A DNA stretch of 64,000 nt from assembly GCA_025357915.1 (NCBI GenBank), contig JANYLH010000016.1:1-64000 (forward strand), written 5' to 3'. Shown piece after piece: positions 27,791 through 30,901 of the stretch. Within the stretch, counting starts at the first letter, position 1. Every line of letters begins with the position of its first letter. The stretch comes from Gammaproteobacteria bacterium (GTDB taxonomy: Bacteria > Pseudomonadota > Gammaproteobacteria > Steroidobacterales > Steroidobacteraceae). Under the pieces are notes generated by a model, which was not told the origin of the DNA, did not search any database, and saw only the letters and a list, made by a program, of their open reading frames with translations. Both the position numbers and the translations under genes were made by a program.

Positions 27791-28984
<1,194 letters not shown>

Positions 28985-29310
28985 GCGCCCGGTTCGCGTC
29001 TCTCTAATCGTTTTTTGCCCCGTCCCTGGTGCTAGCGCCGGCGCAACGGCGATGGCGCCGTCATTGAACATTGTTCGAAGCTTGATTGAGGCTTTACCCC
29101 TGCTTCATATAGGGTTGTACCAATTGCCTGCCGGAATCCCCTGCAGGCCCTGGCCGAGCGACGGCAACTGGGCAGCGCGGGTTTCGCCAGCGGCGCACAC
29201 GCCCAGCGCCACCAGGACGCCCGGCGCCAGGACATCGATAGCGCGGACTCGTACCACCGCGCGACGCTACCTGAAACCAGCGGCAGGTGTCGAATTCAGA
29301 CCTGGTTCAG
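28985..29310 (+). other. intergenic region after metK with no recognised gene
   Basis: This 326-nt stretch follows metK and precedes the ahcY promoter and riboswitch. No open frame here has a family match or a plausible ribosome-binding site. A short run of six Ts follows metK near 29010 but has no convincing stem. Low-complexity GGCGCC-type inverted repeats occur near 29035-29060. I see nothing firm in it. Confidence 0.5.
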
Positions 29311-29318
29311 GCTATAAT
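29290..29318 (+). promoter_or_regulatory. probable promoter of ahcY
   Basis: A perfect TATAAT at 29313-29318 with TCGAAT 17 nt upstream (29290-29295). It lies about 33 nt before the SAH riboswitch, so the switch would sit at the transcript's 5' end. Confidence 0.6.
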
Positions 29319-29350
29319 CGCCGCTCGACGTACGGGCCTGCCCGCACGCC

Positions 29351-29430
29351 GGTGCATCGAGGAGCGTTGCGACAGGGTAAGCCCCTGCCAGGCTTGGTGC
29401 ATCGTGGCTAAGGAGCCAACGGCGCTCACT
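29351..29430 (+). promoter_or_regulatory. SAH riboswitch (S-adenosylhomocysteine-sensing leader)
   Basis: The stretch has the SAH riboswitch core in order: GAGGAGCGTTGCGAC (29359-29373), GCCAGGCTTGG about 13 nt later, and the pseudoknot strand CAACGGCGCTC (29418-29428). The last pairs with GAGCGTTG of the 5' arm. This class occurs before ahcY in Proteobacteria and turns on expression when SAH rises. It sits between the promoter and the ahcY ribosome-binding site, about 35 nt before the ATG. Assigned from memory of the consensus; a covariance-model run would settle it. Confidence 0.92.
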
Positions 29431-29464
29431 ACCTGTTTATACAGAAACAATAGTAGGAGACGCC

Positions 29465-30901
<1,437 letters not shown>

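Follow-up and report, generated by a model that had tools for sequence, protein, structure and literature searches.

Known SAH riboswitches

In their 2008 description of the SAH riboswitch family, Wang and others reportedly presented its members as gene-activating. In known representatives SAH binding occurs at about 20 nM, whereas SAM is bound at least 1000-fold less tightly (PMC11188199). They have been reported in beta- and gamma-proteobacteria with a core regulon of ahcY and metF, the riboswitch being upstream of ahcY in all genomes that carry it, and in Xanthomonadales metF is located outside the ahcY operon (PMC4239095). Here a gamma-proteobacterial stretch of 64,000 nucleotides (the window) was analyzed, in which a preliminary description had placed an SAH riboswitch with its own promoter before ahcY and next to metK. 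Features are on the forward strand unless marked otherwise.

An SAH riboswitch aptamer in the ahcY leader

A cmscan comparison of the whole window with all Rfam families produced a match to the SAH riboswitch model RF01057 at positions 29353–29434, covering the full length of the model (positions 1–78) with a score of 54.6 bits (E 2.6e-7) against a curated gathering score of 37 bits. This covariance search was the computational check proposed in the preliminary description for a riboswitch before ahcY, and a match above threshold was obtained with no refutation; the span originally given, 29290–29464, corresponds to the aptamer together with promoter and leader. The match was the sole one of its kind found in the genome (2.67 Mb, 87 contigs), so that no second SAH switch was found, for example at metF, which is carried on other contigs without one. 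Only one further Rfam match over threshold was present in the window, the 5′ part of a bacterial class A RNase P RNA at positions 1–201 of the reverse strand (136.3 bits), which is cut by the window edge.

P1, P2, the conserved core and the pseudoknot strands of RF01057 are all present in the aptamer, as had been claimed earlier for the core and the pseudoknot arm. In the cmscan alignment the core sequences GAGGAGCG, GCCAGGCU and CAACGGCGCUC are retained, and P1 (29354–29360 with 29394–29400) encloses P2 (29373–29377 with 29383–29387), in which two non-standard pairs are flagged. The strands GAGCG (29362–29366) and CGCTC (29423–29427) occupy the conserved pseudoknot positions of the model and, from the known structure of the family, would be expected to pair with one another. 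In the interval between P1 and the 3′ pseudoknot strand, RNAfold predicted a hairpin with the stem TGGCT/AGCCA (29405–29418). Judged by its sequence, the element before ahcY is a typical SAH riboswitch and an ordinary member of the known family, which the preliminary description had rightly identified without any database search, whilst binding of SAH by this aptamer and the direction of control would follow from what is known of that family. The probability that the covariance model matched here by chance is negligible, as no point was found in support of such a match and it is already refuted both by the E value, which refers to a search of the entire window with every family, and by the conserved position of the aptamer before ahcY.

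Gene context and conservation

The genes on either side of the aptamer were identified by NCBIfam equivalog models at scores over their cut-offs, confirming the described placement of the switch between metK and ahcY. Upstream is metK, encoding S-adenosylmethionine synthetase (27791–28984; TIGR01034, 617.5 bits against a cut-off of 309.4), and downstream, with its start 30 nt beyond the end of the aptamer, is the presumed regulated gene ahcY, encoding adenosylhomocysteinase, which breaks down SAH, a by-product of methylation (29465–30901; TIGR00936, 593.7 bits against 497.6). An aptamer over threshold was detected in 33 of 60 related genomes. Within the genus, 12 of 15 genomes carry it, among them all seven of the better ones. 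Among the 30 loci that were read, the window's own included, ahcY was downstream of the aptamer in every case and metK was upstream in 28. Relatives without a detected aptamer keep ahcY, and in nine of nine tested metK adjoins it; no weak SAH aptamer was found before ahcY in nine genomes lacking a threshold match. Since the metK–ahcY pair is also present in aptamer-less genomes, it is a feature of the order on which the switch has been superimposed.

In three genomes of the same genus (L113, L114 and L115) no SAH aptamer could be detected ahead of ahcY. Their metK genes are 66–68% identical to that of the window, compared with 80–98% for most other members of the genus, and these genomes may have undergone a joint loss or replacement of metK and the switch.

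The window aptamer has TGCGAC where the consensus has TGCAAC, a change of one usually conserved A, and its P2 is short. These two features could be taken to indicate a decayed relic, or an aptamer whose ligand has changed to SAM or to both compounds. Such an origin is highly improbable given a score well above the cut-off, the occurrence of the TGCGAC variant in all same-genus loci as well as in other family members, and the retention of the aptamer before ahcY in more than half of the relatives.

The probable promoter and the metK–ahcY gap

A −10 box, TATAAT at 29313–29318, likely marks a promoter for ahcY. In 7 of the 12 same-genus loci an identical hexamer precedes the aptamer by 38–41 nt, and two further loci of the genus have TAAAAT at distances of 32 and 47 nt. 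As TATAAT is expected about 1.3 times by chance in the 64 kb of the window when both strands are counted, its repeated placement at one spot is not accidental, with the proviso that these loci are related. No good −35 element accompanies it in the window (TCGAAT, three of six consensus positions at a spacing of 17), and the consensus promoter scan listed no site; the −35 element of locus L019 matches five of six positions. Outside the genus, the metK genes of family members often stop 15–50 nt short of the aptamer and no such −10 box was found, and here the switch is probably inside a metK–ahcY transcript or served by a promoter within metK. The proximity of metK to the aptamer in many relatives indicates that a private ahcY promoter, probable in this genus, is not general in the family. 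The earlier proposal that ahcY has its own promoter can thus be upheld in part: it is favored by the recurrence of TATAAT at a fixed distance in the genus and weakened by the poor −35 element and the little room available in many relatives.

The gap between metK and ahcY is 480 bases in the window, 112–217 in most relatives, and 309 and 515 in two others. A segment of approximately 300 bases following metK and preceding the promoter (28985–29300) has no homologue in the loci of relatives or in the rest of the genome; within the sequence leading up to the aptamer, a match to another locus (L011) is confined to the final 47 bases. No other RNA family was found in the gap before the promoter. A repeat origin for the 300 bases following metK was rejected as they are single copy in the genome. 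Spanning the −35 region, CCTGAAACCAG ... CTGGTTCAGG (29269–29311) resembles an inverted repeat; it was left as a chance occurrence since it is interrupted, was not recovered by the repeat search and is not seen in the genus loci compared.

A predicted switching step at the ahcY ribosome-binding site

Minimum free energy folding of the ligand-free leader with RNAfold produced a strong helix between GGCGCTCACTAC (29421–29432) and GTAGGAGACGCC (29453–29464), with a duplex energy of −16.9 kcal/mol, which covers the Shine–Dalgarno sequence AGGAG of ahcY (29455–29459). The whole of GGCGCTCACTAC would thus act as an anti-ribosome-binding-site strand, and because it contains CGCTC, the 3′ pseudoknot strand, the pseudoknot and the hiding helix are mutually exclusive.

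The bases following the pseudoknot strand vary among relatives and the start region varies along with them. Matched pairs include CTAC/GTAG in the window, CAAC/GTTG in L011, L013, L019 and L021, GCGCTCAC/GTGAGCGC in L010, CTCTCTA/TAGAGAG in L024 and TTAACT/AGTTAG in L009. Duplex energies were determined for the pseudoknot strand and following bases of each locus with its own or a swapped start region. Matched strands had a mean of −10.6 kcal/mol, whereas exchanging strands between loci gave −8.4 (sd 0.3). The matched pairing was equalled in 0 of 20,000 permutations overall, in 55 of 20,000 within the genus and in 0 of 20,000 for family members outside it, although the kinship of the loci inflates tests of this kind. 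That L001, L010, L009 and L024 differ in sequence suggests that the hiding complementarity has been maintained independently. Counting pairs column by column in a MAFFT alignment gave an only mildly positive result, with a covariation score of 0.159 against 0.122 for shuffled data (reached by 19 of 500 shuffles); this weakness reflects the variable distance to the start codon, making the swap test of duplex energies the better test. The hiding helix is not universal, being weak or absent in several loci (L008, L027 and L018), and engaging the pseudoknot clearly increased the predicted access to the Shine–Dalgarno sequence in only 12 of 25 loci, with a decrease in one.

We consider it very likely that the SAH riboswitch in the ahcY leader functions as a translational ON switch. 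Transcription would start a few bases past the TATAAT at 29313, with read-through from metK also possible. Without SAH, GGCGCTCACTAC would pair with GTAGGAGACGCC and the ahcY Shine–Dalgarno sequence would be hidden. Accumulation of SAH would stabilize the aptamer, the pseudoknot taking CGCTC for GAGCG, upon which the hiding helix would open and SAH hydrolase would be made. An ON direction fits the leader anatomy as modelled. A genuine SAH riboswitch could also exert its control through intrinsic or Rho-dependent transcription termination rather than by hiding the ribosome-binding site, as riboswitches generally use either level of control and a Rho-dependent mechanism would leave no visible terminator. 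This is unlikely, however, as no intrinsic-terminator-like hairpin was found in 28900–29600 and the start region shows specific complementarity to the pseudoknot strand.

A hairpin preceding P1

Between the promoter and P1 there is a predicted hairpin, termed P0 (CG/CG, CGT/ACG and CGGG/CCCG; 29326–29351), which is outside the Rfam SAH model. A hairpin folds at this position in all 12 genus loci from unlike sequences, with a genus mean z of −1.4 against shuffles, whilst that of the window itself does not exceed shuffled sequences in stability (z 0.03). Hairpins of unlike sequence also precede P1 in family members L009, L016, L025, L028, L029 and L030. Loci with such a hairpin just before P1, upstream of the aptamer, include L007, L010, L011 and L013. 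Possible roles for P0 are protection of the 5′ end and stacking on P1; alternatively, it may be a 3′ hairpin of metK. It is conceivable, if rather doubtful, that the pre-P1 hairpin and a pseudoknot strand co-evolving with the ahcY start form a recurrent extra module in this gamma-proteobacterial family, serving either a private promoter or a metK–ahcY message. Were this so, the gene that makes SAM and the gene that removes SAH would share one transcript, and of the two only the latter would be SAH-responsive.

Comparison with known systems

These data confirm standard metabolic control in a proteobacterial lineage and overturn no established idea; what the analysis adds is an exact predicted switching step at base level. 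The locus illustrates clearly how a switch in or beside the old metK–ahcY pair would separate control of the second gene from that of the first. The SAM-Chlorobi motif (RF01724) similarly precedes operons that include metK and ahcY (PMC2864571), but is a different RNA from a different phylum, located in the operon's 5′ UTR. The SAM/SAH riboswitch (RF01727) resembles the switch predicted here in responding to SAH and controlling translation via the Shine–Dalgarno sequence, but is a small H-type pseudoknot found before metK in Rhodobacterales (PMC2864571, PMC7367207). Neither RF01724 nor RF01727 had a match over cut-off in the Rfam scan of the window. The closest counterpart is RF01057 before ahcY, with which the locus shares aptamer sequence and structure, controlled gene and lineage range; as in the SAH riboswitch loci of Xanthomonadales (PMC4239095), metF is apart from ahcY. 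From known RF01057 loci it differs only in small respects, namely the adjacent upstream metK, the genus-conserved −10 box and the hairpin before P1.
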